64,000 nucleotides of DNA from Phytopseudomonas punonensis (GTDB taxonomy: Bacteria > Pseudomonadota > Gammaproteobacteria > Pseudomonadales > Pseudomonadaceae), in NCBI RefSeq assembly GCF_900142655.1, contig NZ_FRBQ01000002.1:380918-444917 (forward strand), in the 5' to 3' direction. Positions 44,938 through 63,315 of this stretch are shown piece after piece. The notes beneath the pieces were generated by a model. That model ran no database searches. It saw only the letters and a list, made by a program, of their open reading frames with translations, and was not told where the DNA came from. The position numbers and the translations under genes were made by a program. Each line of letters starts with the position of its first letter. Position 1 is the first letter of the stretch.

Positions 44938-45003
44938 GGTTGCTCCTTTCAATCGAAGTGGGCTGCCACCGGCCCGCCTGGCGAGCTCAGCGGCGGGCGA
45001 TGC

Positions 45004-46338: not shown

Positions 46339-46357
46339 GGAGAATGCTCCTGCCGGT

Positions 46358-47559: not shown

Positions 47560-47593
47560 GCTGTGAAAGTCTTTTTGGTTCTAAGCTAATTAT
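47560..47593 (-). promoter_or_regulatory. Sulfur-cluster motif, copy 1
   Basis: A 34-bp segment identical at 33 of 34 positions to copy 2 at 59253-59286. Read on the minus strand it begins ATAATTAGCTTAGAACC and continues with AAAAAGACTTT. It points at the 46358-43831 transcription unit. A TATAAG -10-like hexamer (plus-strand CTTATA, 47541-47546) lies 13 bp downstream. Confidence 0.8.
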
Positions 47594-47676
47594 GTAATTT
47601 CATTATCTAATCTGTTTTGAAATATCAGTAATGGGTATTTAATGCGGGTATCTTTAGAGTGTTCGAGAGTTCTCCC

Positions 47677-48999
47677 ATGAGCAGCAAGAGGCAGATAAAA
47701 CTGGGCGCGGTGCCGATGGGGGTGGGCGGGCCAGGACGCCATAATCTATGGCACGACCCCGAAGTGCCGGCCGATGCCAGCGTCAGTGTCGAGTGGTTCA
47801 TCGACTTGGCGCAGCAGGCCGAGGCCGCGCTGTTCGATCTGATCTTCATCGTCGACAGCCAGTTCATCACGCCGGATTCGCCGCCCCATTACCTCAACCG
47901 CCTGGAACCCCTGACGCTGCTCTCGGCCCTCGCGGTGACTACCCGCCACATCGGCCTGGTCGGTACCCTGACCACCTCCTACAACGAGCCTTTCAACGTG
48001 GCGCGCCGGCTGGCCTCGCTGGATCTGATCAGCAAGGGGCGGGCGGGCTGGAACGTGGTCACCAGTGGCGATGCCGGCACCGCGGGCAACTACGGGCGCG
48101 ACGAGCATTACGACTACGACACCCGTTATGGGCGTGCGCTGGAACATGTCGAAGTGGTGCAGAAGCTCTGGCGCTCCTACGAGGACGATGCGCTGGTGCG
48201 CAACCGCGAGACCGGGCAATTCCTCGACCGCAGCAAGCTGCATGCGCTGCATTACAAGGGAGAGCACTTCTCGGTGGTTGGCCCGCTGAACATCCAGCGC
48301 TCGCCGCAAGGACAACCGGTGATCTTCCAGGCGGGCGACTCGCACCAGGGGCGCGACCTGGGCGCCAACGTCGCCGATGTGGTGTTCACCCATGCACCGA
48401 GCGTGGAGAAAGGCCAGGCCTTTTACCGTGATATCAAGGCCCGCGCCGAGCGCCTGGGGCGTAATGCCGATGACATCATCATCCTGCCAGGTGCGCAGAT
48501 CTACATCGGTGACACCGACGCCGAGGCGCGTGAGATCGAGCGGCACTATCATGCCGTCGACCACAGCTTCGAGCAGGCGCTGGCCGAATATGGCCGCAGC
48601 TTCGGCTGGCACGATTTCCGCCAGTACGACCTCGACGCACCGTTCCCGGTTGAGGCGCTCGAACATGCCCGCAGCAGTTTCTACACCGCCGCCAAGGCTG
48701 CCACCGACCAGGCCGTCGCCAATGGCTGGACGCTGCGCCAGGCGGTGGCCGCCGGCTTGCAGCTGAGGCCCAACGCCTTCGTCGGGTCGGCCGAGACGGT
48801 CGCCAACGAGATGATTCGCTGGTTCGAGGCGCGGGCACTGGATGGCTTCAACCTCTACATCGGCCACCCGGAGCAGTTCCGGCGCTTCACCAGGGAGGTG
48901 GTGCCGATCCTGCAGGAGCGTGGGGTTTATCGCCGTGCGTACGAGGGCAGCACCTTGCGTGAGAGCCTGGGGCTGGAGATTCCTCGCAATCTTCGGTGA
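47677..48999 (+). CDS. NtaA/DmoA family FMN-dependent monooxygenase, second copy
   Basis: A 440-residue LLM flavoprotein with the same layout as the 45004 gene: [78 protein letters not shown]. It belongs to the group including DmoA, DszA and NtaA. The ATG at 47677 is preferred over a GTG at 47659 because the conserved N-terminus starts there; ribosome-binding signals are weak for both. It is divergent from the binding-protein operon and monocistronic, facing the dipeptide-transporter operon convergently. Confidence 0.87.
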   Translation: MSSKRQIKLGAVPMGVGGPGRHNLWHDPEVPADASVSVEWFIDLAQQAEAALFDLIFIVDSQFITPDSPPHYLNRLEPLTLLSALAVTTRHIGLVGTLTTSYNEPFNVARRLASLDLISKGRAGWNVVTSGDAGTAGNYGRDEHYDYDTRYGRALEHVEVVQKLWRSYEDDALVRNRETGQFLDRSKLHALHYKGEHFSVVGPLNIQRSPQGQPVIFQAGDSHQGRDLGANVADVVFTHAPSVEKGQAFYRDIKARAERLGRNADDIIILPGAQIYIGDTDAEAREIERHYHAVDHSFEQALAEYGRSFGWHDFRQYDLDAPFPVEALEHARSSFYTAAKAATDQAVANGWTLRQAVAAGLQLRPNAFVGSAETVANEMIRWFEARALDGFNLYIGHPEQFRRFTREVVPILQERGVYRRAYEGSTLRESLGLEIPRNLR

Positions 49000-49064: not shown

Positions 49065-50690
49065 TCAGGCCGCCACGCCAGCCGTGTGATGGCCTGGTAT
49101 GGCCGCGATCAGCTCCCGGGTGTAGTCGCTGGCCGGATGGTCGAACACTTGCGCCACAGAGCCTTGCTCGACCACTTGCCCGTTGCGCAGCACCAGTATC
49201 TGATCGGCGACGTTGGCGACCACTGCCAGGTCGTGGGACACCAGCACATAGGCAATACCCAGTTCGCGCTGCAGCTCGTCGAGCAGGTCGAGAATCTGCG
49301 CCTGCACGGAAACGTCGAGCGCCGATACCGGCTCGTCGAGCAGCAGGTCGGGTTTCAGCGCCAGGGCACGGGCGATAGCGACGCGCTGGCGCTGGCCGCC
49401 GGAGAGTTCGCGAGGCAGGCGATCCAGATAGCTGACGGGCAGGTGCACGCGGCTGATCAGCTCGCGCGCGGCCTTTTCCAACGCTTCGCCCTTGAGTAGG
49501 CCAAAGGACACCAGCGGTTCGACGATACTGTCGAAAATCGTGAAACGCGGATCGAGGGCGGCGAAGGGGTTTTGCTGCACCAGCTGAATACGTTGGCGCA
49601 GCGGGCGGAATTCACGCCAGCTGAGATTGGTCACGTCCCGCTGCTCGAACTGCACGCGACCCTGGCTGGGTTTTTCCAGACCGAGGGCTATGCGCAGGGC
49701 GGTGCTCTTGCCCGAGCCGGATTCACCGACGATGGCTAGGGTCTGGCGGGGGTAAACGTTGAGGCTGAGGTTCTGCAGAGCGATGAACTGGCTGTCTTCA
49801 CCCTTGACCCTCGGCAGCTCGAAGGTTTTGCCAACATTATTCAGGCTGAGGATTGGTGTCTGCTCGGCGTGGCTAATAGTCGCGCGCGGCTTGCGCCGAT
49901 TGGCAAAAGCCGGTGCGGCGGCGAGCAGGGCACGGGTGTAGTCATGCTGCGGCGCATCCAGAATCTGCTTTGGCTGGCCCTGTTCGACCAACTCGCCCTG
50001 TTTCATCACGAGGATACGATCGGCGCGGTCCGTTGCCACGCCCAGGTCATGGGTGATGATCAGCAATGAAATACCGCGCTCGGCGACGAGGCGCTGCAGG
50101 TGGTCGAGAATCTTGCGCTGCACGGTAACGTCCAGGGCGCTGGTCGGCTCGTCGGCAATGATCAGCCGCGGGTTGCCGGCCAGCGCGATGGCAATCAGTA
50201 CACGCTGGCGCATGCCGCCGGACAGCTCATGGGGATATTGGCGGGCGCGCAGCACCGGTTTGTCGAGGCCGACCTGTTCCAGCAACTCGACGATATCGGC
50301 GTCTACGCCCGGATAACGGCGGCCATGGGCAAGAATCAGCGCTTCGCCGATCTGCTGGCCAATACGCAGCGTCGAGTTGAGGCTGACCATCGGGTCCTGC
50401 GGTACCAGGCCGATGGTACGTCCGCGCAGGGCAAGCTTCTGTTTCTCGCTGGCGCTGCTTAGCTCGGTGCCATCGACCAGCAACTGGCCATCGGTGATCT
50501 GCGCATTTTCCGGCAGCAGGCCGAGAATGGCGTTGGCCAGGGTCGACTTGCCCGAGCCAGATTCGCCAACGATGGCCACGGTCTCGCCCTGGTCGACGCT
50601 GAATGAAACGTTACGCACCGCCTGGTTCGTCTGCCCGGCGATGCGGTAGCTGACCGCCAGATTGCGAATATTGATCAACAGGCTGCTCAT
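49065..50690 (-). CDS. Dipeptide/nickel-type ABC transporter, fused double ATPase
   Basis: A 541-residue protein with two complete ABC modules, equivalent to DppD plus DppF fused (YejF/GsiA-like). First module: [33 protein letters not shown], Walker [13 protein letters not shown]. Second: [44 protein letters not shown]. Each H-loop (ITHD and VSHD) is present, so both halves look active. It energises the permeases encoded just upstream; its ATG overlaps the permease gene by 4 bases. Confidence 0.93.
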
Positions 50691-51589
50691 CGGGTGTTCT
50701 CCTCGAAGGTGCGGGCGATGTGGTTGAGGCTGAACACCACTGCGACCACGAACAGCCCCGGCAGCAACGACACCCAGGGTGCGGTGATCAGAAAGTGCCG
50801 GCCGTTGGCGATCAGTGTGCCCCATTCGGCAGCGGGTGGCGCGGCGCCAAACCCAAGAAACGACAAGCCGGCGGTGGCCAGAATCGCCGCGCCAAAATCC
50901 AGGGTGGCGAGCACCGCCACCGGGCCCCAGGCGTTGGGCAGAATGTGCCGCAGCAAGGTGCGGCCCCAGCTGGCGCCGCCCAGTCTTGCAGCTTCCACAT
51001 AAGGCAGCGTTTTCACCCGCAGCACTTCGGCGCGGGTGGTGCGGGCAAAGCCGGGAATGATGCCAACGCCCACGGCGATGGCCACCGGGATGGTGCCAAA
51101 GCCGATGGCAGTGACGATGGCCAGGGCCAGCAGCAGGCCGGGTAGGGCCAGCAGCACGTCGACGAAACGCATGATCACGGCATCGATACGTCCACCGGCA
51201 AACCCGGACAGCACACCGAGGCCGAGCCCGCCGACCAGGGCGATGCCGACGGCCAGCAACGCAGCCTGCACCGACAGGCTGGAGCCGTAGACCACCCGGG
51301 TATACAGATCGCGGCCCAACTCATCGGTGCCGAACCAGTGAACCAGGTTCGGTGCGGTGAGCTTGTCGGTGGGCGAGGTGGCGTAGGGGTCGAAACCCGT
51401 CAGCAATTGCGGCACCAGCGCCGAAACCAGTGCGAACAGCACGATCAGCGCCGCCAGGCTGAAACCGGGGCGGCGCAGCAACGGGCGTAACGCGGTGACC
51501 GCGCGCTGTAAACGGCTGCGGCGCCGCCAGGTGAGCGACACGTTGGCGGGCGAATGGGAGAGCGAGGCAATGCGGCTGTCGGCGTTCAT
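50687..51589 (-). CDS. Dipeptide-type ABC permease (DppC-like)
   Basis: A 300-residue inner-membrane permease with an N-terminal cytoplasmic tail, a first helix (about 44-62), the conserved HWFGTDELGRDLYTRVVYGSS and the binding-protein-dependent transport domain with the EAA loop EAARLGGASWGRTLLRHILPNAWGP. It pairs with the 51593 product. Confidence 0.92.
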   Translation of the reverse strand: MNADSRIASLSHSPANVSLTWRRRSRLQRAVTALRPLLRRPGFSLAALIVLFALVSALVPQLLTGFDPYATSPTDKLTAPNLVHWFGTDELGRDLYTRVVYGSSLSVQAALLAVGIALVGGLGLGVLSGFAGGRIDAVIMRFVDVLLALPGLLLALAIVTAIGFGTIPVAIAVGVGIIPGFARTTRAEVLRVKTLPYVEAARLGGASWGRTLLRHILPNAWGPVAVLATLDFGAAILATAGLSFLGFGAAPPAAEWGTLIANGRHFLITAPWVSLLPGLFVVAVVFSLNHIARTFEENTR

Positions 51590-51592
51590 GGG

Positions 51593-52543
51593 TCAGGACA
51601 CCTTTGGCGTGTGGGCGATGCGCGGATCGAAGTAGGGATACAGCAGGTCGACGATCAGGTTGACCAGCACGAAGGCCGCAGCGGACACCGCGACGATGGC
51701 CAGCACCACCGGAATGTCCTGGCGCAACACCGCTTCCTGGGCCAGGCGGCCGACGCCGTTGCGGGCGAAGATGGTTTCCACTAGCACCGCGCCGGATACC
51801 GTGTTGCCGACCTGCAGGCCGATCAGGGTGAGAATCGGCAGCGCGGCATTCTTGAACGCATGGCGCGCCTGCACCTGAGCACGGCTCAGGCCCTTGGCGT
51901 ACGCCGTGGCGATGTAGGGCTCCTGCCACACGCCCTGAAAGCCGCGTTGCAGCACCTGGGCGTACACCGCGGCGCTGGGAATAGCCAGGGTCACGGCCGG
52001 CAGGATCAGGCTGTCGAAGCCGCGGCTGCCGGTGGCCGGAAACCAGCCGAGGCTGAACGCGAATACCTGAATCAGCAGCAGGCCCATCCAGAACACCGGC
52101 ACCGAGAAACCCAGTGACGGCAGGCGCGCCAGTGCGACTTTCAACGGCCGCCAGCGGGTGTAGGCCGTCAGGTAGGCCAGGCCGATGCCGCCGATCAGCG
52201 ACAGCACGATGGCCAGGCCGGCTAGCGACAGGGTTTGTGGCAGGCGCTGCACCAGCAGCTCGTTGACCGGGCGGTTGAGCGACAGCGATTGCCCGAAGTC
52301 GCCCTGCACGGCGTTCCACAGCAAGCTGAAGTACTGCTCGAAGATACCCTTGTCGAGGCCGTAGTAGGCCTGTGCCCTGGCCAGGTCCTCGGGCGATAGC
52401 GAATCGACTTCCATGCCCGAGGCGCTGAGCATGATCGACAGGGTGTCACCCGGCAGCAGGTAAAGGATGAAGTAGGTGATGCTGTAGGCGCCCCAGAGCA
52501 CCAGCAGCGCCTGGCCGACGCGGCCGATCAGGTAGCGGCTCAT
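51593..52543 (-). CDS. Dipeptide-type ABC permease (DppB-like)
   Basis: A 316-residue inner-membrane permease starting RYLIGRVGQALLVLWGAYSI with six predicted helices. The EAA-like loop is EPYIATAYAKGLSRAQVQARHAFKNAALPIL, and the C-terminal YPYFDPRI motif is typical of DppB. It overlaps the substrate-binding-protein gene by 4 bases. Confidence 0.92.
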   Translation of the reverse strand: MSRYLIGRVGQALLVLWGAYSITYFILYLLPGDTLSIMLSASGMEVDSLSPEDLARAQAYYGLDKGIFEQYFSLLWNAVQGDFGQSLSLNRPVNELLVQRLPQTLSLAGLAIVLSLIGGIGLAYLTAYTRWRPLKVALARLPSLGFSVPVFWMGLLLIQVFAFSLGWFPATGSRGFDSLILPAVTLAIPSAAVYAQVLQRGFQGVWQEPYIATAYAKGLSRAQVQARHAFKNAALPILTLIGLQVGNTVSGAVLVETIFARNGVGRLAQEAVLRQDIPVVLAIVAVSAAAFVLVNLIVDLLYPYFDPRIAHTPKVS

Positions 52544-54168
52544 GGTTCATCCACCTCGATATCGCCCAGCAGCGCGAAGCCTTCGGCGGTCCAGCGGAAG
52601 TTCTTCACCCGCGGCGCGGTGGCGGCCTGCCAGACGCGTTCGTAGATTGGAAATGCGGAGGCTTCGTCGACCAGCAAGTCCTGCAGCTGCCCGTAGGCCT
52701 CGGCGCGCTGCTCGGCCTGGGTGGCGGTGATGCCAGCATCGAACAGCGCCTTGGCCCGTTCCAGGGTTTGCGGCTCGTAGAGGTTGGTGGCCAGCGTCGA
52801 GCTGTTGGCGGTGCGCGGATCGAGGATGGTCTGCAGGATGATCGGGTCGGCGCGGGTCATATAGGTGGAGGTCAGATCATAGTTGCCTTGAGCGTTGGCC
52901 GTGACCCATTCGGCGCGCGTGACTACGGCGAGCTTCAGCTCGATGCCGAGCTTGCGCAGTTGATCCTGCACCAACACATCGCCGGCAGTTTCCGCACCAT
53001 TGATGTTGTAGCTCAGGCTCAGGCGCTTGCCGTCCTTGCTGCGGTAACCATCGACGCCCTTGCTCCAGCCCGCCTCGTCGAGCAACTGCTCGGCGCCCTG
53101 TGGGTCGTACGCCAGCTTGGCACTCTGATCCTTGAAGAACGGCGTGGTCACGTCATAGATGCTGCGCACCACCGGAAACTCGGCGTTGTACACGGTGCTG
53201 GCGTAGGTCTTGCGGTCGATACCTTTCTGCAGTGCCAGGCGCACGCGTTTGTCTTCCAGCACGCGGCCGTTGCGGGTGTTGGGGAACAGGTTCAGCGACG
53301 GCCCCGGCAGCGCCCGGCTCTGGATGGTCGCGCCCTTGGACTGAAACAGCTTCAGGTCCACTTCCGAGAACGGGTTGCGAGGCCACAGGATGTCGGCCTC
53401 GCCCTGCAGGAACAGGCCATTGCGCACACTTTCCTCGGGGATGTAGCTGATCTCCACGGTATCGAGATGGGCTTCACCCTTGTTACTGACGTTGGCTGAC
53501 GGCCAGGCGTAGCCGCTGCGCTTGACCAGCTTGGCACCCACCTCCGGTGTGTAATGCTCTAGCACGAATGGGCCGCTGCCGATGATCTTGCCGAGCGAGC
53601 GCTCCTTTGGTGTCAGTGCGTAGGACGCTGGTGCGAGAATCGCCAGATTGGTGGTCGAGGTGGCCTGCAGAAAGCCGGCGTTGGGCCGAGACAGCATCAG
53701 TTTGACGGTAAAGTCGTCGACCACTTCGGCGTGATCAAAGCCTGCCAGGTAGGTGGCGCCAAAGGTCGCTGGCTGGTCGGTGGCCAGCGCCTTGTTACTG
53801 TCGAAGGCGGTCTTCACGGCCCTGGCGTCGAAGCGTTCGCCATTGCTGAATGTCACGTCGTCACGCAACTGAAAGGTGTAGGTCAGGGCGTCGTCGCTGA
53901 TGGTCCAGCTTTTCGCCAGCCAGGGAATGATCTCGCCATTCTTCGGGTCCTGATCGGTCAGGCTTTCGGCGACATTGCGCAGCAGCACGCGGTGCTCCAG
54001 CCAATAGACCTGGAACGGGTCGACGCTGACCAGCGTGGTGTTGTCGCCGAAGAAGGCGATGTTCAGGGTTTTGCTGGCGGCTTCGTCGTCAGCAGGCGAG
54101 CAGCCGATCAGCGCGGCGGCGATAGCGCAGGAAGCGAGCAGGTGGAGCGCGGAGTAAGTTTTTTTCAT
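52540..54168 (-). CDS. Dipeptide-type ABC substrate-binding lipoprotein
   Basis: SBP_bac_5 family, 542 residues. A lipoprotein signal peptide ends at Cys23 (AAALIGCSPAD). The mature protein has the family segments LLRNVAESLTDQDPKNGEIIPWLAKSW, YTFQLRDDVTFSNGERFDA and GSGPFVLEHYTPE. Location in a sulfur cluster suggests a sulfur-containing peptide, glutathione-like or thioether ligand; the specificity cannot be read. It is first of the four ABC genes, after a 218-bp gap from the small ORF at 54387. Confidence 0.9.
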   Translation of the reverse strand: MKKTYSALHLLASCAIAAALIGCSPADDEAASKTLNIAFFGDNTTLVSVDPFQVYWLEHRVLLRNVAESLTDQDPKNGEIIPWLAKSWTISDDALTYTFQLRDDVTFSNGERFDARAVKTAFDSNKALATDQPATFGATYLAGFDHAEVVDDFTVKLMLSRPNAGFLQATSTTNLAILAPASYALTPKERSLGKIIGSGPFVLEHYTPEVGAKLVKRSGYAWPSANVSNKGEAHLDTVEISYIPEESVRNGLFLQGEADILWPRNPFSEVDLKLFQSKGATIQSRALPGPSLNLFPNTRNGRVLEDKRVRLALQKGIDRKTYASTVYNAEFPVVRSIYDVTTPFFKDQSAKLAYDPQGAEQLLDEAGWSKGVDGYRSKDGKRLSLSYNINGAETAGDVLVQDQLRKLGIELKLAVVTRAEWVTANAQGNYDLTSTYMTRADPIILQTILDPRTANSSTLATNLYEPQTLERAKALFDAGITATQAEQRAEAYGQLQDLLVDEASAFPIYERVWQAATAPRVKNFRWTAEGFALLGDIEVDEP

Positions 54169-54386
54169 CTATTTGTCCCGATTTTTCTAATGAGGTGCAT
54201 GCAAGGCTGAGGGCGGCCACCTGTAAGGCTGCGTCCGCGGTGGGGGGCGCTGCTGTACATGGGCGTACGAAGCCTCGACGCGCCGGCTTTCACAGGTGCG
54301 GTTCGTGGCTTTGGTGGGAGCGACAAGACGGTGGTAGATCGCTCAAGGTGTTGCAGGTCTGTCCGGCGGGATATCCGGTTAGACGA

Positions 54387-54521
54387 TCACTGTCGGCGAC
54401 ACATTCGTTCATCGTCACGCTGGGCCGGCGGCAGCCCCGGCCAGCCGATCAGGACGCTGGCGCTGTTCCCATGCAGGTTGTCGAGCAGGCGACTGACTAG
54501 ACGTGAGAGATAGCGTTTCAT
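54387..54521 (-). CDS. Candidate 44-residue small protein
   Basis: Starts 15 bases after the stop codon of the SsuB-like gene, with AGGA 9 bases before the ATG. It reads MKRYLSRLVSRLLDNLHGNS, ASVLIGWPGLPPAQRDD and ERMCRRQ: a basic amphipathic N-terminal helix followed by a short hydrophobic patch and a basic end. It lies between two transporter operon parts. I know no family match; its position and ribosome-binding site are the only support. Confidence 0.4.
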   Translation of the reverse strand: MKRYLSRLVSRLLDNLHGNSASVLIGWPGLPPAQRDDERMCRRQ

Positions 54522-54536
54522 GAGGTACGTCCTGCC

Positions 54537-55331
54537 CTAGATTGCGATGGCGCTGAGCGGGTAGCCCTGCGCCAGAAACGGGTTGTGGTCACGACCGATG
54601 CTTTGCGGGTCGTCCTTTTCCACACCGAGCAGTGCCAGCAGGCGTGTGCGGATGGCGTTGAAACCGGCCTGGCCGTTGTCACGCGGGCGATCCAGATCGA
54701 CACGCAGCTCTTCGGCGATGCGACCGTCCTGCAGCACGATGATGCGGTCGGCGAGCAGAATGGCTTCGTCGACATCGTGGGTGACCAGCAGCACCGCCGG
54801 TGTGTGCTTCTGCCACAGGTCGATGATCAGCCGATGCATGCGGATGCGGGTCAGCGCATCGAGGGCGGCGAAGGGTTCGTCGAGCAGCAGCAGTTTGGGT
54901 TCGCGAACCAGGCTACGCGCCAGTGCCACACGCTGGGATTCACCGCCGGAAAGAGTGGCGGGAAACGCCTCCAGGCGATGAGCCAGGCCGACTTCTGTGA
55001 GCGCCTGCACGGCGCGCTCCTTGGGGTTGGCCACGCGCAGGCCGAGGGTGACGTTCTTCCAGGCACGTTTCCAGGGCATCAGCCGTGGCTCCTGGAACAC
55101 CGCGGCGCGGGCCTGCGGGGCGGTCAGTTCGCCGCCCTCGATGGGGTCGAGGCCGGCCAGGGAACGCAACAGAGTGGTCTTGCCGGAGCCGCTGGCGCCA
55201 AGCAGGGCGACGAACTCGCCTGGAGCGATGTCCAGGTCCAGTTCATCGATCACCCGGTTGTCGCCGAACTGACGTACCACGCCGCGCAGGCTGACGGCCG
55301 GCGAGAAATCGATCTTGCTGTGCGCATTCAT
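54537..55331 (-). CDS. Sulfonate/taurine-type ABC ATPase (SsuB-like)
   Basis: A 264-residue ABC ATPase of the SsuB/TauB/NrtD group. Walker A GASGSGKTTLLRSLAGLD, signature LSGGESQRVALARSL, Walker B LLLLDEPFAALD and H-loop VTHDVDEAI are all present. The 3-bp spacing to the SsuC-like permease gene and family type identify it as that permease's ATPase. Confidence 0.92.
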   Translation of the reverse strand: MNAHSKIDFSPAVSLRGVVRQFGDNRVIDELDLDIAPGEFVALLGASGSGKTTLLRSLAGLDPIEGGELTAPQARAAVFQEPRLMPWKRAWKNVTLGLRVANPKERAVQALTEVGLAHRLEAFPATLSGGESQRVALARSLVREPKLLLLDEPFAALDALTRIRMHRLIIDLWQKHTPAVLLVTHDVDEAILLADRIIVLQDGRIAEELRVDLDRPRDNGQAGFNAIRTRLLALLGVEKDDPQSIGRDHNPFLAQGYPLSAIAI

Positions 55332-55334
55332 GCA

Positions 55335-56159
55335 TCAGGTCCTTATGAACGATGGGCGCCAGGCCAGGGCCAGGCGTTCCAGAGTGCGGATCAAACCGTC
55401 GATGAGCAGACCCAACAAGCTGTAGATCAGCAGGCAGATGACGATCACGTCGGTGCGCATGAAATCCCGCGCATCGCTGGCCAGGAAGCCGATGCCAGCG
55501 GTGGTGTTGATCTGCTCGACAAACACTAGCGCCAGCCAGGAAATGCCCAGGGAATAGCGCAGGCCGACGAAGAATGAGGGCAGGGCGCCGGGCAGGATCA
55601 CGTGCCAGATCAGCTCGCGACGGTTTAGGCCAAGGGTGTTGGCCGCCTCCACCAGTTTCGGGTCGATGTTGCGGATGCCGGCGAACAGGTTGAGGTAGAT
55701 CGGAAAGGTGGTGCCCATGACGATCAGCGCCACCTTGGTGAACTCGCCGATGCCGAACCACAGGATGAACAGTGGCACCAGAGCCAGGGACGGGATGGTG
55801 CGCAGCATCTGCATGGGCGAGTCGAGGGCGATCTCGCCGCGTTTCGACAGGCCGGTGATCAGCGCGGCGCTGACGCCAATGGCCACGCCGATGCTCAAGC
55901 CAGTGACGGCGCGCTGCAGCGAGACCAGCAGATGGCGCAGCAGCTCACCACTGCGGATCAGCTCCCACAGCGTGGTGCTGATTTCGCTCGGCGCGGCGAT
56001 CACCCGGGTGGGAATCAGCCCGGTCCGCGAGGCGATTTCCCAGAGCAGCAGAATGGCCAGGGGGCTGAGCAGGCGCAGCACGAAATCCGGTGCCGTCCAT
56101 GTCCGGCGGTGGGCGGACGCTGTCGCGCGGCTTACGGTGATGGTGCTGGTATCGCTCAT
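55335..56159 (-). CDS. Sulfonate/taurine-type ABC permease (SsuC-like)
   Basis: A 274-residue inner-membrane permease with five to six helices (first about 29-50) and the cytoplasmic EAA motif KLVEAANTLGLNRRELIWHVILPGALPSFFVGLR. It belongs to the SsuC/TauC group. The binding protein is not adjacent; the nearest candidate is the 46358 product. Confidence 0.92.
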   Translation of the reverse strand: MSDTSTITVSRATASAHRRTWTAPDFVLRLLSPLAILLLWEIASRTGLIPTRVIAAPSEISTTLWELIRSGELLRHLLVSLQRAVTGLSIGVAIGVSAALITGLSKRGEIALDSPMQMLRTIPSLALVPLFILWFGIGEFTKVALIVMGTTFPIYLNLFAGIRNIDPKLVEAANTLGLNRRELIWHVILPGALPSFFVGLRYSLGISWLALVFVEQINTTAGIGFLASDARDFMRTDVIVICLLIYSLLGLLIDGLIRTLERLALAWRPSFIRT

Positions 56160-56175
56160 CAGGATCTCCCGCCAC

Positions 56176-56970
56176 TCAGTGTTTGTAGCTATGGCCCGAG
56201 GCGCGCTCGAGCTGACGAATCAGCGCGTCCCAGTGCAGCTTGATGCCCGGCCCCTTGCCGTCGGAAAAGCGCGCCGACTGCTGGCGCACCTTCTCGATGG
56301 CTTCGGCCGGCGCGTGCAGTAGGTCGGCGTTACCGCCGGCCTGGGCGGCGATCTGGATGTTGCAGGCGCGCTCCAGCCCATGCAGCTCGCGAAACGCATG
56401 CTCGACGCTGATGCCGCCGGTGAGCAGTCCGTGGTTGCGCAGGATGAAGATGTTGCTGTCGCCCATGTCCGCGACCAGCCGTTCCTGCTCGTCGAGATCC
56501 AGCGCCACCCCTTCGTAGTCGTGGTATTTCACCCGGCTGTAATAGCCCAGCGCGTGTTGCGAGAGCGGCAGCAGGCCGCCGCGCTGAGCGGAGACCGCAG
56601 CGCCGTCGCGGGTGTGGGTGTGCAGCACCGCCTGCAAATCAGGGCGTGCACGGTGAATGGCGCTGTGGATCACGTAGCCAGCCTGGTTGATGCCCAGGTT
56701 CAGCGGGTCGTCTATGATCGTGCCATCGACGTCGACCTTCACTAGGTTCGAGGCGGTGATCTCGTCGAACAGCAGGCCGAAGGCGTTGATCAGAAAGTGC
56801 TCGTCCGGCCCCGGTACGCGGGCGGAGAAGTGTGTGTAGATATGATCCGTCCAGCGAAACAGCGCGGCCAGCTGGTAGGCGGCAGCCAGCTTGACGCGTA
56901 CTTCCCATTCTTCAGGGCTGACGCGCTCCCGGACCGACGGGGTGCTGTGTAGGGTGGCAAGTGAACTCAT
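56176..56970 (-). CDS. Class II aldolase/adducin-family protein
   Basis: A 264-residue cytoplasmic protein with the class II aldolase fold. The zinc-binding His117, His119 (LHTHTRDG) and His180 (LRNHGLL) are present. Aligned by eye to fuculose-phosphate aldolase, the catalytic Glu position appears to be Gly98 (NQAGYVIHSAI), so the true reaction may differ from retro-aldol cleavage, as in adducin-like or decarboxylase members. Start 56970 (MSSLATLHST, after AGGAGATT). It is embedded between the SsuC-like permease and a D-2-hydroxyacid dehydrogenase, suggesting it processes the carbon skeleton of an imported sulfur compound. Confidence 0.85.
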   Translation of the reverse strand: MSSLATLHSTPSVRERVSPEEWEVRVKLAAAYQLAALFRWTDHIYTHFSARVPGPDEHFLINAFGLLFDEITASNLVKVDVDGTIIDDPLNLGINQAGYVIHSAIHRARPDLQAVLHTHTRDGAAVSAQRGGLLPLSQHALGYYSRVKYHDYEGVALDLDEQERLVADMGDSNIFILRNHGLLTGGISVEHAFRELHGLERACNIQIAAQAGGNADLLHAPAEAIEKVRQQSARFSDGKGPGIKLHWDALIRQLERASGHSYKH

Positions 56971-57001
56971 GGCAATCTCCTGGCCTCGATGGGCAATCTG
57001 T

Positions 57002-57952
57002 CTAGTAACCGCGTCCGATATCGACGAGGTTTTCCAGTTGCGCTTGCGTCTGGAAACGCTGGAAGTTGGCGACGAAATCGTCGACGAACTTGCGCTTCCC
57101 GTCGGTGGACAGGGCACTGGTGTGGGGTGAAATACGTACCCGCGGATGCACGTACAACAGGTGATTGTTCGGTAGTGGTTCGGGGTCGGTAACATCCAGG
57201 GTGGCGCGGCCGATGCTGCCGTTGTCCAGGGCCTCGAGCAGGGCGTTTTGATCGAGCAGGCCGCCACGAGCCAGGTTGATCAGGTGCAGGCCGGGCTTGG
57301 CGCTGCCCAGCACGTCGCGGTCAAGCAGGTGGCGGGTATCTGCGGTCAGTGGCGTCACCACCACTAGGTGATCGGCTTCGGCGAACAGATGGTGGATATC
57401 ACGCGCGGCCTCGATGCCGGGAATTTCGGCGAGGGCGTGACCGGGGCGCCCTAGGGCGATGACGCGCATGCCCAGGGCCAGCGCCTTTTGCGCCAGGCTC
57501 TGGCCAATCGAGCCTAGGCCCAGGATACCCAGCGTCGCGCCCTTGACCGGCTGCAGGTAGGTGAAGTGCCAATCGTCGTTCTTTACCCAGATGTCCGGAA
57601 GCTGCTTGGCCGCGCTGAAGATCGCCGCCAGGGCGAATTCGGCGACATGGTTGGCGTTGGCACCCTTGGCGCTGGCAACCTGCTCTACGTCGAACAGCCA
57701 GCTCGGGTAGAAATCGATGCCGGAGGAGGCCAGTTGCACCCACTGCAGCGACCACGGCCAACCGGCTGGCGCATCCTTGAGTTCGACGCCGCGCACGTTG
57801 ATGGGGCGTACGATCAGCGTGCTGGCGTCAGCAGGAATTTGCGCCAGGCCTTCCGGGCCAAAGGGGATTTCGACGATACGCTGTTGCGGCAGGCGCTCGC
57901 GCAGATAGGCGTTGGCCTCGGCATCTAGCTGGCTGACGATGGTCTGGCTCAT
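57002..57952 (-). CDS. D-isomer-specific 2-hydroxyacid dehydrogenase
   Basis: A 316-residue NAD(P)-dependent dehydrogenase. The Rossmann motif is LGILGLGSIGQSLAQKALALG, and the catalytic Arg (INLARGGLLDQ), Glu (TDPEPLPNNH) and His (ISPHTSAL) are present. It converts a D-2-hydroxyacid and its 2-oxoacid or a similar pair; the substrate is unknown. It overlaps the upstream flavoprotein gene by 4 bases. Its presence in a desulfurisation operon is unusual and hints at a sulfur-bearing or sulfur-derived hydroxyacid. Confidence 0.9.
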   Translation of the reverse strand: MSQTIVSQLDAEANAYLRERLPQQRIVEIPFGPEGLAQIPADASTLIVRPINVRGVELKDAPAGWPWSLQWVQLASSGIDFYPSWLFDVEQVASAKGANANHVAEFALAAIFSAAKQLPDIWVKNDDWHFTYLQPVKGATLGILGLGSIGQSLAQKALALGMRVIALGRPGHALAEIPGIEAARDIHHLFAEADHLVVVTPLTADTRHLLDRDVLGSAKPGLHLINLARGGLLDQNALLEALDNGSIGRATLDVTDPEPLPNNHLLYVHPRVRISPHTSALSTDGKRKFVDDFVANFQRFQTQAQLENLVDIGRGY

Positions 57953-59148
57953 CGTGCGGCCTCCCGAGCCTGGGCGAAGGCGCTACGGCCGACGGCGCTG
58001 AGCGCCACATCGTCCTGCGGGGTGTGGATGCGGCTGCACAGCACGTCACGGAAATGCCGTTCCAGCGGGTTCTTGCGCGACAGGCCCGGGTTGCCGGATG
58101 CCTCGATGGCGAGTTCTACGGCACGGATTGCGTTGCTGCTCACCAGTTGCTTGATCTGTCCGGCGTGCGCCGCCTCGACCTGGCCGGCGGCAGCCGAATC
58201 GAGCAGGGTGCGGTTGGCAAACAGCAGGGTATCGATGCGCCCGACGATCTCCTGAAAGCGCGGCAGGCTGGAGAGCGGCGCTCCGAGGTTGGAGGGCGTA
58301 CGTTGTTCGAGAAAGCCCACCAGCCAGTCCCGCGCCGCCTGGGCGACGCCATCGTAGATGGCCGGCAGCAATACCGACATCCACAACATGCCTTCACCGT
58401 CCAGTTCCGGCCTGGGTGCGCTCCAGGGGCTGACACTGACAGCGTGCTCGAGGGGGATCAGCACGTCGTCGAACTGCACTTCATGGCTGCAGGTGGCGCG
58501 CATGCCCAGGTGATCCCAGTCGTCGACTATACGAATGCCGGGGGTGTCGCGATGGACCAGGTAACCGCCAACCAGTGGGTCGGCATCGTCGCTGCGCGCC
58601 CACACCAGGTACCAGGTCAGGCCGTGGCTGCCAGTCGAATAGATCTTGCGGCCGCTCAGGCGCCAGCCTTCGCTGGTACGTCGGGCAGTCGTCGCTGGCA
58701 GACCGCCGCGCGCCGGCGTGCCGAGTTCGGGTTCGACGCGAAAGGCGTTGATCAGCGCGCCGTTCTCTACCGCATCGATACCCACCTGGCGACGCAGATG
58801 CTCGGGCCAGTTGAGGTTCTGCTGCAGGCGAAAATGCTGCAGGTACTGCATTACTAGAATCAATGCGGTAGACGGCTCGCCCTTGGCCACCGCACTGACG
58901 ACCTGCCGCGCTATCAGCAGGTCGGCGCCGCTACCGCCCAGGCTTTTCGGTACCGTCAAGGCTAGCAATCCGTGGTGCTGCAGCAGTGCGAAGTTCTCCG
59001 CTGGAAACTCGCCACTGCGGTCGAAACGCTCGGCGCTGGCGGCCAGCGTACGGGTTATTTCAGCCAACAGGCGGGCGAAGTGGGCCGCGTCTCGCTCAGG
59101 GGCTTGGCATTGGGCGGTAAAGGCGAGGGTGTCGGCGAGGTGCGTCAT
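57949..59148 (-). CDS. Acyl-CoA dehydrogenase-fold flavoprotein (SfnB/DszC-like)
   Basis: A 399-residue acyl-CoA dehydrogenase-fold protein. Seen: GLLALTVPKSLGGSGADLL, the beta-barrel region WRLSGRKIYSTGSHGLTWYLVWARS, and the C-terminal RHFRDVLCSRIHTPQDDVALSAVGR. The C-terminal acyl-CoA dehydrogenase base (Glu in a YEGT-like context) is absent; this fits the DszC/SfnB sulfur-acquisition group that acts as FMN-dependent monooxygenase. It is first gene of the long operon downstream of motif copy 2. Confidence 0.88.
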   Translation of the reverse strand: MTHLADTLAFTAQCQAPERDAAHFARLLAEITRTLAASAERFDRSGEFPAENFALLQHHGLLALTVPKSLGGSGADLLIARQVVSAVAKGEPSTALILVMQYLQHFRLQQNLNWPEHLRRQVGIDAVENGALINAFRVEPELGTPARGGLPATTARRTSEGWRLSGRKIYSTGSHGLTWYLVWARSDDADPLVGGYLVHRDTPGIRIVDDWDHLGMRATCSHEVQFDDVLIPLEHAVSVSPWSAPRPELDGEGMLWMSVLLPAIYDGVAQAARDWLVGFLEQRTPSNLGAPLSSLPRFQEIVGRIDTLLFANRTLLDSAAAGQVEAAHAGQIKQLVSSNAIRAVELAIEASGNPGLSRKNPLERHFRDVLCSRIHTPQDDVALSAVGRSAFAQAREAAR

Positions 59149-59252
59149 GGGTCTCTCATCACTAGCGCAGAGGGCAGGCGATGCCTGTCTGGTTTCTGAG
59201 CGCCCCAGGGTGATGAGGTGGCCTGAGTGAGACCGTATTCTTATAACTTAAC

Positions 59253-59286
59253 GCTGTAAAAGTCTTTTTGGTTCTAAGCTAATTAT
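59253..59286 (-). promoter_or_regulatory. Sulfur-cluster motif, copy 2
   Basis: Matches copy 1 at 33 of 34 positions. It lies 105 bp upstream of the 59148 start and points toward it. A TATAAG -10-like hexamer (plus-strand CTTATA, 59240-59245) follows 7 bp downstream. Confidence 0.8.
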
Positions 59287-59424
59287 CAGCGTTGCTGATT
59301 TATAATTTTAATCTTTATGCGCTAATGGAATTATTAGTGGTCAAAAAAAGGGCGCTGTTGCACCCATGGTCGTGTAGAGGGCGTAGCGCTATCAAAGCGT
59401 TAATCGCTCTGACAGCCTACTGCG

Positions 59425-60318
59425 TTAAGTCGAGCGCAGGCGCTCGGCAGCGACATCGCTGAACAGGTTCACGGCATCCTGAAGGTTGCCCAGGTACTGC
59501 GGATGCAGCAGCCAGAGGTCGATCATCGGTTTGAAGTCGCCAACGCTGATCACGTCCAGTTGCTCGCGATGGCCGCTGCGCTCGAGCAAGGGCGCCGGCA
59601 CCAGGCCCAGCCCCATGCCGCTGGCGACTAAGCCCAGCTGCAATTCGGTGCCAAAGGTTTCCAGGTTGATTTGTAGCGACAGGCCTTGTTCGGACAGTGC
59701 GCGTTGCAGGCCGGCGCGGAAGCCGCAACCATCCGGGTTGAGCACCCAGCCCTGCGCGTAGCAGTCCTTGAGCTTGCAGCTGCGCTTGCGCATCGCGCCC
59801 TTCGCGGCCACCACCAGTAGCGGCATGCGGCCGATGGAGCGGCTGGCGATGCCTTCGGGAAAAATCTTGCCGGCAGGGAAGAGCACCGCGGCCGCATCCA
59901 GCTCACCATTTTCCATGCGCGTGATCAGGCTACTGCCCCAGCCATTGATGACCTGGGTCTTCAGCTCCGGGAAGGTCTCGCGAATCTGCTGCAAGGCATC
60001 GAGCAGCACCACATCACTGATGGTTTGGGGCACACCCAGGCGCAGCGAGCCGCTGGGCGAACCATCGCTGGCGACCAGCTCACGCAGTGAGTCGATTTCG
60101 CGCAGGATCGCCTTGCACTGTTCGTAGACGCGCAGGCCCATGGGCGTCGGCTTGAGCGGCTTGGTGTTGCGGTCGAGCAGGTTGGCGCCCAGGTCTTCCT
60201 CGAAGTTCTGTACGCGCCGGGTGATGGCTGGCTGGGTCAGTTGCAGCGCATCGGCCGCCAGCTTGGTCGATTGACAGCGGATTACCGCAACGAATGCATC
60301 CATGTCATCGATCTTCAT
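59425..60318 (-). CDS. LysR-family transcriptional regulator
   Basis: A 297-residue LysR-type regulator: N-terminal winged helix-turn-helix (MKIDDMDAFVAVIRCQSTKLAADALQLTQPAITRRVQNFEEDLG, residues 1-45) and a C-terminal inducer-binding domain (from about 90). A GTG 12 bases further upstream (60330) is a possible alternative start, but the ATG has the better context. It is transcribed toward, and separated by 276 bp from, the operon beginning at 59148, with motif copy 2 between them. It is the only regulator in the cluster and the prime candidate for its control, possibly with CysB. Confidence 0.9.
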   Translation of the reverse strand: MKIDDMDAFVAVIRCQSTKLAADALQLTQPAITRRVQNFEEDLGANLLDRNTKPLKPTPMGLRVYEQCKAILREIDSLRELVASDGSPSGSLRLGVPQTISDVVLLDALQQIRETFPELKTQVINGWGSSLITRMENGELDAAAVLFPAGKIFPEGIASRSIGRMPLLVVAAKGAMRKRSCKLKDCYAQGWVLNPDGCGFRAGLQRALSEQGLSLQINLETFGTELQLGLVASGMGLGLVPAPLLERSGHREQLDVISVGDFKPMIDLWLLHPQYLGNLQDAVNLFSDVAAERLRST

Positions 60319-60754
60319 CTTTGCGCTCACATATTAAGAGTTGGAAAAAATACGCTTATAGAATAACTCGCTGGATCGAACCAGAGCACGGATCGATTTG
60401 GGAATGTGACCGACAAGGCTGGGGCGTTATGGCGAAGCACTGAGTCTCCAACCAGCTTTTGCGTAGTGGCCGGGAAAGGAGCGGATAGGGTGGCGGTGCG
60501 GGGCCTCTACCGCGGCCATTGGATAACGTGATGGGCGAGAGCAATAGGGCTTGGCGAGAGTCCCTCTGGTGCAGCTTTCATGAAGCGGCAACCACAAGGC
60601 AGAAGCGGCCACTCAGCGATTCATTGTGGGAACGGGCCATGCCCGTGATTTTTCGCGGGCATGGCCCGCTCCCACAGGTAATGCTCCTACGGCCGCTTGC
60701 GCCACTTAGCTGCCAAAGTCGACGAACCTGGGCTGAAAGATTATGAACAGGTTC
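60319..60754. other. LysR-rhodanese spacer, no gene seen
   Basis: About 430 bp. It holds the REP palindrome at 60625-60676. I found no supported reading frame and no clear terminator for the rhodanese gene whose 3' end it follows. Confidence 0.5.
60625..60676. repeat. REP/BIME palindrome, copy 2
   Basis: TGTGGGAACGGGCCATGCCC ... GGGCATGGCCCGCTCCCACA. It is the reverse complement of the copy at 24987-25034 apart from a 2-base longer loop. Confidence 0.85.
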
Positions 60755-62338
60755 TCATATCACCTGAAAGTGATGGGTTCCATCGCGGCCCAGTTGCTCG
60801 ACCAGGCCGAACTCCCAATCCAGGTAGCCCTGCATGGCTTCGTGCGGGTTATCGGTGCCCTCGTAAGGGCGGCGATAGCGGTCGCTACGGGGTACTGCCA
60901 GGTGCTGATCGCCACTCTCCGTCGGCAGGCCGGCAGCGACCCAAGCCGCCGTGCCTCCTTCGAGCAGCGCCACTGGCTTGCCGGTCAGCTCCTCCAGTTC
61001 GCTGACCACGAAGCGGGCCAGCAGGCTACTGCCACAGGTAAGCACGTAGCGCTCTGCCACCGGTAGTTTTTCAAGCGCTTGTGGTAGCTGCGACCGTAAT
61101 GCCCACCAGGCGCCGGGAATATGCCGGGCGACATGGTTGGCGCTGGCAGTGAAGTCCAGTACCAGGGTGTCACCTTCGGCCAGCCGGGCGGCCAGCGTCT
61201 GCGCATCGATAGCGGCAGGTTGCGGCAGGGCCGGCAATGGTGGCTGCCAGGCGCCGCGCGCGGTGAAGTCGCTGTCCTGCAGGCCATCGAGCACGTGTAC
61301 TTCCCAGCCCAGCTGCGCCAACCAGGAGGCGCTCATGTTGGCGCGCACGCCATCATCGTCGGCGAGCACCACGCGGGCGCCGCGCACGCTGGCGAAGTGG
61401 TCGGTTTCCTGCACCAGCTGGCCGCCTGGCGTAGAGCGCGCGCCCGGTAGATGGCCGGCCTCGTATTCCTCGGGGGTGCGGACGTCAAATAGGTAGGTGG
61501 TGCGAGTGTTCTCGGCCTGCCAACGTGTCAGGTCCTGCAGACTGGCGCGGCCGACTCCAGCCTTGTCTGCCACGGCGCGTGCCGACTGCGCGGCTTGTTG
61601 GTGATTGTGCTCGCTCACCTCGCCAAAGCGCCGCGCCTGGCCGTGCTCCAGCTGCTGGCCGGCCAGGGTCCAGCCGATGGTGCCATTGCGTAGCGCCGCC
61701 ACCGGGTTGGGCAGGCCGGCGTTGACCAGCGACTGGGTGCCGATGATGCTGCGAGTTCGGCCGGCGCAGTTCACCACGATACGGGTAGCCGGATCGGGCG
61801 CCAGTTCGCGGGCGCGCAGCACCAGCTCGGCGCCCGGCACGCTGATGCCGGTAGGAATGCTCATGGTCTGGTATTCATCGAAGCGGCGGGCGTCGAGCAC
61901 CACCACGTCGGCCTTGGCATCGAGCAGGGTTTTGACTTCTTCGGCAGCCAGCGACGGCGTGTGGCGCACGCTCTCGACCAGCTCACCAAACGCCTTGCTC
62001 GGCACGTTGACGTCGCGAAACAGCTCGCCGCCGGCATCACGCCAGCCCGCCAGGCCGCCGTCGAGCAGCGCCACCTGGCTGTAACCCAAGGCGACCAGGC
62101 GTTTGAGCGCTTCCCGCGCCAGGCCCTCGCCGTCGTCATACAGGGTTACAGCGGTATCGCGCCGCGGGATGCGCGCGTAGACCTCCAGTTCCAGCTTGGA
62201 TAACGGAATATTGGCCGCGAACAACGGATGCGCTTCGGCGAACGGCGCCTCTTCGCGGACATCGATCAGCGCCACTTCCTGCTTGTCGAGCAGGGCCTGG
62301 CGGATGGCGTGGAAGGAGCGGGTGGCGATCTGGCTCAT
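60755..62338 (-). CDS. Four-domain rhodanese sulfurtransferase
   Basis: A 527-residue protein made of four rhodanese-like domains (about 1-115, 125-235, 265-365, 375-475) and a 50-residue tail. Catalytic cysteines occur only in domains 2 (Cys191, NCAGRTRS) and 4 (Cys435, TCGSSLLA); the equivalent loops of domains 1 (YDDGEGLA) and 3 (ADDDGVRA) have Asp instead. Thus it is an active/inactive tandem repeated twice. It would transfer sulfane sulfur. It overlaps the thiol dioxygenase gene by 4 bases and is expressed with it. Start 62338 gives the conserved MSQIATRSF. Confidence 0.9.
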   Translation of the reverse strand: MSQIATRSFHAIRQALLDKQEVALIDVREEAPFAEAHPLFAANIPLSKLELEVYARIPRRDTAVTLYDDGEGLAREALKRLVALGYSQVALLDGGLAGWRDAGGELFRDVNVPSKAFGELVESVRHTPSLAAEEVKTLLDAKADVVVLDARRFDEYQTMSIPTGISVPGAELVLRARELAPDPATRIVVNCAGRTRSIIGTQSLVNAGLPNPVAALRNGTIGWTLAGQQLEHGQARRFGEVSEHNHQQAAQSARAVADKAGVGRASLQDLTRWQAENTRTTYLFDVRTPEEYEAGHLPGARSTPGGQLVQETDHFASVRGARVVLADDDGVRANMSASWLAQLGWEVHVLDGLQDSDFTARGAWQPPLPALPQPAAIDAQTLAARLAEGDTLVLDFTASANHVARHIPGAWWALRSQLPQALEKLPVAERYVLTCGSSLLARFVVSELEELTGKPVALLEGGTAAWVAAGLPTESGDQHLAVPRSDRYRRPYEGTDNPHEAMQGYLDWEFGLVEQLGRDGTHHFQVI

Positions 62339-62937
62339 GCAGGGTTCTCTTTGGACAGGTCCCAGAGGTTGGGAAGAAGGCTGTTGGAATAGCCGGAAAT
62401 GAATGGCTTCTCGCTGCCGTCGTCGAGGTAGACGGCACGCCTTACCGCGCCGATGTTGGCGCCATAGACGTGGATGCTGATCGAGGTGCGATCGTCGAAG
62501 GCGTTGCTGACCCGATGGATATCGCCGATGCGTGGCGACACGGCTTCTACCTGGCCAGGTTGCAGGCGCACCGCCGGCCCTTCGGGGCGCAGCCCGGCGG
62601 CATCGCGGACAAACCCCTGGGACAGCTCCGCGCCACGCAGCATGCCGATCAGGCCCCAGACGCGGTGATCGTGCACCGGCGTGCTTTGGCCAGGCCCCCA
62701 CACGAAGCTGACGATGGAAAAGCGATGGCGCGAATCGGCGTGCAGCAGAAATTGCTGATAGCGCTGCGGGTCGGGCTGGGCGAAGGCGGGCGGTAGCCAG
62801 TCGTCGTGGCGAACCAATTGATGCAGCAGCTCGGCGCCGCGCTCAAGCACCAGGCTTTCGTCGGGCGAGCTGTCGAGCAATTGCGCCAGTTCATTGATGA
62901 ACTGACGCAGGCGTTGCAGATTGGGTTGGGCGCTCAT
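62335..62937 (-). CDS. Cysteine dioxygenase-family thiol dioxygenase
   Basis: A 200-residue cupin with the 3-His iron site His89, His91 (VHDHRVW) and His141 (GDIHRV), at the spacing reported for P. aeruginosa 3-mercaptopropionate dioxygenase (His89/His91/His142). It would oxidise a thiol to a sulfinate with O2. Pairing with rhodanese and LLM monooxygenase suggests thiol detoxification or use. Start 62937 (MSAQPNLQRLRQF); motif copy 3 lies 76 bp upstream. Substrate (cysteine, 3-mercaptopropionate or other) not resolved. Confidence 0.9.
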   Translation of the reverse strand: MSAQPNLQRLRQFINELAQLLDSSPDESLVLERGAELLHQLVRHDDWLPPAFAQPDPQRYQQFLLHADSRHRFSIVSFVWGPGQSTPVHDHRVWGLIGMLRGAELSQGFVRDAAGLRPEGPAVRLQPGQVEAVSPRIGDIHRVSNAFDDRTSISIHVYGANIGAVRRAVYLDDGSEKPFISGYSNSLLPNLWDLSKENPA

Positions 62938-63012
62938 GCAGATATCCGGTGGTTTGCTTAAGGCCCTGCTGGGCATCGAGCGCTCACGGTAGCAAACCGT
63001 TTATGCTCATAA

Positions 63013-63201: not shown

Positions 63202-63315
63202 CCTAACTGAATGCCGCTTGCGTAGCGTTATAAGTATTCGTTAGGCACTGACGCGCTTTTATAAAGAAAATGCTCTGTCGTGCTGGCGCTTGCCCATCTC
63301 AATCAGGAGCGCGAC

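Follow-up and report, generated by a model that had tools for sequence, protein, structure and literature searches.

A 64-kb stretch of the 4.81-Mb genome of Phytopseudomonas punonensis (assembly GCF_900142655.1, contig NZ_FRBQ01000002.1, positions 380,918 to 444,917; hereafter the window, whose positions give all coordinates below) carries a putative organosulfur-scavenging gene set, parts of which resemble several described systems. The ssu, msu and sfn systems of Pseudomonas and the dimethyl sulfide (DMS) pathway of Acinetobacter baylyi share with this locus an SsuABC-type importer, LLM-type FMN monooxygenases and a flavin monooxygenase of the acyl-CoA-dehydrogenase fold (PMC13352529). Unlike the locus, they come without a hydroxyacid dehydrogenase or a thiol dioxygenase in the available text of that article and without an aldolase in its main text, and the proteins of the locus fall below the equivalog cut-offs for SfnB, SsuC, SsuB and SsuD. 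The pathways for mercaptosuccinate and for 3-mercaptopropionate (3-MPA) and dithiodipropionate in Advenella and Variovorax include a CDO-type thiol dioxygenase with a LysR regulator, a rhodanese and an ABC transporter near Msdo, and an enzyme of the acyl-CoA-dehydrogenase superfamily, a desulfinase, encoded beside mdo (PMC5373536). They differ in using CoA-dependent desulfination and TctC or PAAT transporters, and the main text of that article contains neither a class II aldolase nor a hydroxyacid dehydrogenase. In the 3mdo-tst pair of P. protegens CHA0 and in PA2602-PA2603 of PAO1, a dioxygenase gene is followed by a sulfurtransferase gene, as at 62976-60755 in the window, but the available text gives no sulfur-island context (PMC12947264). 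The gene adjoining PA2602 in PAO1, PA2601, encodes a LysR regulator (PMC8151288).

The core of the locus is a minus-strand gene set that runs from 59148 to 54537 and encodes, in gene order, an acyl-CoA-dehydrogenase-fold flavoprotein (57949-59148), a D-2-hydroxyacid dehydrogenase (57002-57952), a class II aldolase-like protein (56176-56970), an SsuC-like ABC permease (55335-56159; NCBIfam model NF008470, 255.5 bits, below the cut-off of 347) and an SsuB-like ABC ATPase (54537-55331; NF008420, 248.1 bits, below the cut-off of 395). The successive spacings are -4 (a 4-nt overlap), 31, 16 and 3 nt, and the tight packing of these genes on one strand, as described in an earlier sequence-only reading of the window, is confirmed. 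A second minus-strand operon (47341-43831) comprises the genes for an SsuA-family binding protein (46358-47341; TIGR01728, 198.4 bits, above the cut-off of 163.5), an NtaA/DmoA-family FMN monooxygenase (45004-46380; TIGR03860, 546 bits, cut-off 279.7) and an SsuD-like FMN monooxygenase (43831-44952; PF00296; TIGR03565, 263.6 bits, below the cut-off of 518.2). We propose that the core genes make up half of a regulon for organosulfur scavenging that consists of two operons under LysR control. In it, flavin monooxygenases would release sulfite, while the dehydrogenase and the aldolase-like metalloprotein would process the carbon skeleton; on balance, we consider this proposal probable. Its best-supported level is the genomic and regulatory one, at which a single LysR-linked organosulfur gene set would include the dehydrogenase and the aldolase-like protein; the chemistry of the pathway is what we infer from the protein families. 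The single operon envisaged in the sequence-only reading proved too narrow, as two operons carry a common upstream element and linked genes flank both; the LysR, rhodanese and dioxygenase genes and the second operon do not figure in that reading.

The neighbourhood of the aldolase-like gene is conserved within Pseudomonas. Class II aldolase matches at E 1e-40 were found in 133 of the 149 genomes of the genus, and the best identities break between 72% and 58%; matches of at least 72% identity (43 genomes) were taken as orthologs, and the 42 neighbourhoods outside the source genome were compared (tblastn, E 1e-10, half coverage, any identity; several neighbourhoods end at contig ends). Matches to LysR were present in 33 of them, SsuA-like in 33, SsuD-like in 31, flavoprotein in 27, dioxygenase in 24, rhodanese in 23, dehydrogenase in 22, DmoA-like in 22, SsuB-like in 19 and OppDF in 14. 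Four neighbourhoods around aldolase paralogs of 51-58% identity contained no island genes except one dehydrogenase-family match. Two arrangements recur, that of the window and the order ssuD> <aldolase <LysR dioxygenase> rhodanese> ssuA> DmoA> flavoprotein> dehydrogenase>. The flavoprotein gene adjoins the dehydrogenase gene in all 20 Pseudomonas neighbourhoods holding both, and the dioxygenase gene adjoins the rhodanese gene in 23 of 23. In the close relative G147 (contig C12), the aldolase and flavoprotein matches are about 91 nt apart, and the other orthologous island genes of that neighbourhood are 86-98% identical.

The two operons are joined by a 33-bp element. This conserved block was found by aligning the intergenic regions between the flavoprotein gene and that of the adjacent LysR-type regulator (59425-60330, minus strand; HTH_1 and LysR_substrate domains) from the window and 13 further loci; it is missing from two loci (L043, L044). 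Copy 1 (59254-59286, minus strand) lies 105 nt before the flavoprotein gene, and copy 2 (47561-47593, minus strand), identical to it in 32 of 33 bases, lies 219 nt before the ssuA-like gene. A position-specific scoring matrix (PSSM) derived from the same loci mapped 73 sites in 40 of the 42 Pseudomonas neighbourhoods. Within 450 nt before island genes lie 63 of these sites (ssuD-like 19, aldolase 14, flavoprotein 12, ssuA-like 9, DmoA-like 5, LysR 3, dehydrogenase 1), and 10 remained without assignment. A fixed pattern drawn from the sites, with up to three mismatches allowed, occurs exactly twice in the 4.81-Mb genome, both times in the island, and in 46 of the 149 genus genomes; the reversed-pattern control gave no hits in either search. 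Because the element is shared, the operon of the SsuA-family protein, a possible binding protein, is tied to the SsuCB half-transporter, and this protein could partner SsuBC, filling in for the binding protein missing there. Because 14 sites precede aldolase genes, the aldolase gene is tied to the set even where it forms a separate transcript. Downstream of the element core, TTTACA-N17-TACGGT was read off the alignment as a candidate promoter. The palindrome ATCAGC-N3-GCTGAT at 59285-59299 was also considered and rejected: it is perfect in the window, but it was not found upstream of the flavoprotein gene in related loci.

The adjacent LysR protein is the likely controller of the predicted regulon; none of the 25 NCBIfam models listed for it, of 50 matched, reaches its cut-off. 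If the element were instead bound by CysB or a different general regulator of sulfur metabolism, the co-regulation would reflect sulfur starvation and not one pathway. In favor of this explanation, the binder of the element is putative, and one element-bearing genome of the 46 (G119) has no island LysR match reaching the chosen cut-off. Nevertheless, we regard it as unlikely, as the 14 kb surrounding the canonical ssu genes and the rest of the genome outside the island contain no copy of the element, and it is almost completely co-distributed with the island LysR (45 of 46 genomes). The distributions of the island features are concordant. Among the 149 genus genomes, the element is present in 46, LysR in 54, the aldolase in 43, the dioxygenase in 53 and the dehydrogenase in 40; all five features occur in 33 genomes and none in 93. 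Element and LysR are found together in 45 genomes compared with 16.7 expected, all 43 genomes with an aldolase ortholog have both LysR and the element, and all 40 with the dehydrogenase have LysR and the dioxygenase. LysR and the dioxygenase co-occur in 52 genomes and are adjacent in at least 36 of these.

Beyond the genus, flavoprotein matches at E 1e-80 or better were found in at least 19 of 398 phylum genomes, a lower bound as up to four candidates per genome were scored. Neighborhoods were examined for 17 of these genomes (the others being the source genome and G083), and in the 15 outside the genus SsuD-like matches were present in 14, rhodanese in 9, dioxygenase in 7, aldolase-like in 4 and dehydrogenase in 1. 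In 20 control windows, taken from other places in 16 of the 17 genomes and from four further genomes, there were SsuD-like (1), dehydrogenase-family (1), SsuB-like (5), SsuA-like (1), SsuC-like (1) and OppDF-like (2) matches, and none for rhodanese, dioxygenase, aldolase, flavoprotein or LysR. Since the grouping recurs in Pseudomonas and other proteobacterial genera, while the controls gave no rhodanese, dioxygenase, aldolase or flavoprotein match, it exceeds chance. Outside the genus the aldolase-like protein has few close relatives: at E 1e-85, matches came from 2 of the 398 phylum genomes, with 62-63% identity in both, and at E 1e-95 the search of 369 class genomes returned the source genome only. 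Of three further neighborhoods anchored on aldolase matches, one (L116) contains both the dioxygenase and the rhodanese.

The gene families of the island are also found together on plasmids. An annotated plasmid of Azospirillum sp. B510 carries genes for a dioxygenase, a rhodanese, a LysR regulator, an LLM monooxygenase, a hydroxyacid dehydrogenase, a class II aldolase and a member of the acyl-CoA dehydrogenase family, and island families appear by name on annotated plasmids of A. ramasamyi, Paraburkholderia sprentiae and Klebsiella pneumoniae. The K. pneumoniae plasmid (NZ_CP079608.1), from a clinical isolate, has rhodanese, thiol dioxygenase, LysR, flavoprotein and importer genes of the island kind; flavoprotein matches lie on three more Klebsiella plasmids among the matches listed. 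In Rhizobium lusitanum, where the region is unannotated, dehydrogenase, aldolase, flavoprotein and SsuD-like matches stand in a row. The dehydrogenase gene adjoins the aldolase gene there, in Azospirillum sp. B510 and in genome G838. Pantoea and Paracoccus have parts of the set only, and the Palleronia homologue of the dehydrogenase lies in an unrelated gene context. The sulfur-scavenging theme and the unity of this unusual combination, both put forward in the sequence-only reading, are upheld by the conserved neighborhood, the co-distribution, the shared element (including its 14 aldolase copies) and the plasmids of other genera; a lack of conserved co-occurrence in other genomes, which that reading named as a refutation, was not seen, as co-occurrence was observed in Pseudomonas and in other proteobacterial genera.

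The flavoprotein contains the N, M and 2 domains of Pfam Acyl-CoA_dh. Its best PDB sequence matches are 5gj7/5z8t (208 bits), followed by the FAD-dependent oxidoreductases 3m9v/4kcf (115), the nitrososynthase 3mxl (99) and the short-chain acyl-CoA dehydrogenase 1jqi (91); DszC entries reach 38-40 bits. The catalytic glutamate of acyl-CoA dehydrogenases sits in a C-terminal YEG motif, and the flavoprotein has HTP where the acyl-CoA dehydrogenases L144 and L145 of the same genome carry YEG; H375 and P377 are kept in 57 of 57 homologs. Two other family members of the genome also lack YEG there, so that the motif by itself does not separate the two enzyme types. Together with the PDB matches, we read the protein as probably a flavin monooxygenase of the FMNH2-dependent group D; in A. 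baylyi, group D members with this fold carry out dimethyl sulfide oxidation (PMC13352529). The earlier description of the flavoprotein as DszC/SfnB-like holds at the superfamily level; the specific models score far below their cut-offs (DszC model NF043015, 49.4 of 850 bits; SfnB model TIGR04022, 111.4 of 430.9). Elsewhere in the same genome (G000:C13:258000-272000), three acyl-CoA-dehydrogenase-family matches in a row occur together with an LLM-type monooxygenase match, perhaps a sulfide or sulfone oxidation locus.

The top NCBIfam match of the flavoprotein is the 3-sulfinopropanoyl-CoA desulfinase model NF042439 (E 2.4e-32), which would fit a dithiodipropionate-type route as in Advenella mimigardefordensis, with the dioxygenase producing 3-sulfinopropionate and the flavoprotein acting as 3-sulfinopropionyl-CoA desulfinase; the Advenella desulfinase gene likewise neighbours mdo, and there is a LysR gene at a distance of two genes (PMC5373536). 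Such a route seems to us highly improbable, as the NF042439 score is 112.1 bits where 600 are required, the flavoprotein gene adjoins SsuD-like genes in other genera, and no CoA ligase or CoA transferase was recognised among the island open reading frames (ORFs) read, no dedicated search having been made. Moreover, 5af7/5ahs, which we take to be the Advenella desulfinase and which are listed as acyl-CoA dehydrogenase, reach 60 bits compared with 208 for 5gj7.

The dehydrogenase has the NAD-binding domain PF02826 (154 bits, cut-off 25.1) and an intact Arg-Glu-His triad, the catalytic set of D-2-hydroxyacid dehydrogenases: Arg229 is kept in 39 of 39 homologs, and Glu258 and His277 in 38 of 39 each. 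Domain and residues place it among the D-2-hydroxyacid dehydrogenases, and it is 96% identical to its nearest named relative, from P. flavescens. The aldolase-like protein belongs to the class II aldolase/adducin type (NCBIfam NF005451, 352 bits, cut-off 207), and it matches the structure 3ocr (429 and 499 bits in two comparisons). Three metal-binding histidines (His117, His119 and His180) are conserved in all 62 homologs, and the protein is probably a metalloenzyme. The alignment position that we take to be Glu73 of FucA is occupied by Gly in 58 homologs and Ala in 4, which sets the protein apart from the FucA-type class II aldolases. The three-histidine pattern lacking the glutamate is common to TqaM, adducin and 4xxf in the alignment, and the protein scores 94 bits with TqaM, 86 with NovR and about 24 or less with the E. 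coli FucA entries; TqaM and NovR are Fe-dependent. The role of Glu73 in FucA is taken from PMC5216522, whose available text describes an Fe(II) enzyme of the same fold, pyruvic oxime dioxygenase, with the three histidines kept and the FucA-type glutamate missing.

In the proposed mechanism, the adjacent LysR would control both operons, and the SsuA-family protein (47341-46358) with SsuBC would bring in an organosulfur acid. FMNH2 is presumed to come from elsewhere because no flavin reductase was recognised in the island; it would perhaps be made by a reductase near the canonical ssu locus, which is located on contig C11 (SsuD, 628.2 bits, above the cut-off of 518.2) and lies 1.2 kb from a sub-threshold match to the flavin reductase family (94 bits, cut-off 212.5). 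FMNH2 would power S-oxygenation by the flavoprotein and C-S cleavage by the SsuD/DmoA-like enzymes, releasing sulfite. Cleavage beside a carboxylate would leave a 2-oxo acid, which the NAD(P)-linked dehydrogenase would interconvert with a D-2-hydroxy acid, and the aldolase-like metalloprotein would then split the skeleton or oxidatively decarboxylate it. The linked 3-mercaptopropionate dioxygenase and rhodanese would serve a thiol branch. A substrate that gives a hydroxy or oxo acid, as suggested in the sequence-only reading, remains conjectural, and the close relative G147 lacks the dehydrogenase. A bolder variant, to which we assign a low probability, makes the dehydrogenase and the aldolase-like protein partners in chain shortening. 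A 2-oxo acid that bears sulfur (e.g. mercaptopyruvate or the one derived from methionine) would be converted by the former to a D-2-hydroxy acid. The latter, working as an Fe(II) oxygenase in the manner of NovR, TqaM and pyruvic oxime dioxygenase, would decarboxylate this hydroxy acid oxidatively, so that the short thio-acid product would pass to the flavoprotein and the 3-mercaptopropionate dioxygenase and be oxidised towards sulfite.

A number of observations weigh against the two-operon regulon, and some of them point to an alternative in which sulfur scavenging is the work of the flavoproteins, with the dehydrogenase and aldolase-like genes as passengers whose functions are unrelated or a matter of general clean-up. 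The dehydrogenase is missing from G147, whose aldolase is 97% identical and which retains the flavoprotein; two Pseudomonas neighborhoods of 20 kb that are not cut by contig ends (L065, L068) hold the aldolase without the other island genes; 10 of the 43 aldolase genomes lack the dehydrogenase and 7 of the 40 dehydrogenase genomes lack the aldolase, so that 17 of the 50 genomes with either gene carry just one of the two; and in one of the two arrangements the aldolase and flavoprotein genes lie on different transcripts. We nevertheless judge the passenger alternative to be rather unlikely, as the dehydrogenase is confined to genomes with the island LysR and dioxygenase (40 of 40), 14 element sites precede aldolase genes, and the dehydrogenase-aldolase adjacency recurs in R. 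lusitanum, Azospirillum sp. B510 and G838. Further points concern the regulon itself. Nine LysR genomes lack the element, which together with G119 runs counter to a fixed pathway; in the window, neither the dioxygenase-rhodanese genes nor the Opp importer has an element upstream; and the binder of the element is unproven and may be CysB. The co-distribution counts take genomes as independent despite their relatedness, and the Fisher p values (6e-16 to 2e-36) therefore exaggerate the evidence. Outside the genus, the aldolase matches in flavoprotein neighborhoods are just 32-42% identical, and two aldolase neighborhoods (L101, L117) lack both dioxygenase and rhodanese. At the protein level, two of the four family members compared in the same genome (L143 with GAG, L146 with API) also lack YEG, and adducins (208 and 134 bits) and 4xxf (126 bits, named fuculose-1-phosphate aldolase by its depositors) outscore TqaM with the aldolase-like protein, as does 3ocr (499). 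The structure models are poor, with a mean pLDDT of 46 for the flavoprotein (7-sequence alignment) and 40 for the aldolase-like protein (6-sequence alignment). Finally, the proposal as a whole draws on sequence and gene distribution.

The region from 43831 to past the end of the window is predicted to be one sulfur island. Upstream of the LysR gene and the flavoprotein operon lie the genes for a 3-mercaptopropionate dioxygenase (62335-62976, minus strand) and a rhodanese protein (60755-62338, minus strand; PF00581 in four stretches), which overlap by 4 nt. The dioxygenase matches 3uss/4tlf (319 bits), 4wvz (315) and 6xb9 (325), the first two near full length, which assigns it to the 3-mercaptopropionate dioxygenases with its substrate given by similarity only; it has no NCBIfam match. 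Diverging from the dioxygenase gene and extending beyond the window end are another SsuD-like gene and the genes for two binding proteins, of which one is SsuA-family (63280-64000 and L077, 4198-7305); apt and fnr-family genes come next. Profile scans confirmed the SsuA, DmoA, apt and Fnr families. Both island SsuD-like copies are below the TIGR03565 cut-off, the second scoring 225.5 bits. A second NtaA/DmoA-family FMN monooxygenase gene (47659-48999, plus strand; TIGR03860, 497 bits, cut-off 279.7) is convergent.

An Opp-type importer (OppA-OppB-OppC-OppDF, 54168-49065) follows SsuB on the same strand, as the sequence-only reading had it for a dipeptide-type importer, but because of the 368-nt gap it may be a separate transcript; the start of the interval in that reading, 53000, falls within OppA. 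The importer consists of a family 5 solute-binding protein (52540-54168; PF00496, 235 bits; TIGR04028, 290 bits, cut-off 468.5), permeases B (51593-52543; PF00528; NF045470, 263 bits, cut-off 350) and C (50687-51589; PF00528; NF045474, 240 bits, cut-off 300), and a fused ATPase with two ATPase domains (49065-50690, start codon chosen by us; PF00005 in two stretches and oligo_HPY), all encoded on the minus strand. The gap (54536-54169) contains a short putative ORF beginning ATGAAACGC at about 54521. Sigma-70 and terminator scans of 54000-60800 yielded about the same as shuffled sequence, and an Rfam scan of 43000-64000 gave no match reaching the gathering score.

Existing precedents cover parts of this gene set, namely the thiol dioxygenase with rhodanese and LysR, mdo beside the desulfinase (PMC5373536) and 3mdo-tst (PMC12947264), as far as the available texts go. 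No paper describing the whole set was found among the open-licence literature matches listed, and among those for the element strings none concerns, by title, pseudomonad sulfur genes; the main text of a PAO1 sulfur-starvation study mentions aldolase once, as Eda (PMC12581299). The available text of PMC12947264 states that what 3-MPA does in pseudomonads is still unknown. As the dioxygenase is tied here to a LysR regulator, a DNA element, monooxygenases, a dehydrogenase and an aldolase-like protein, the 3-MPA question becomes tractable by a few deletions and binding assays. We know of no function on record for the aldolase/adducin subfamily of 3ocr, or for 5gj7/5z8t; this subfamily, with its solved structure, gains a context in sulfur metabolism. 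The chain-shortening pair, if true, would provide a source of the orphan substrate of the 3-mercaptopropionate dioxygenase.

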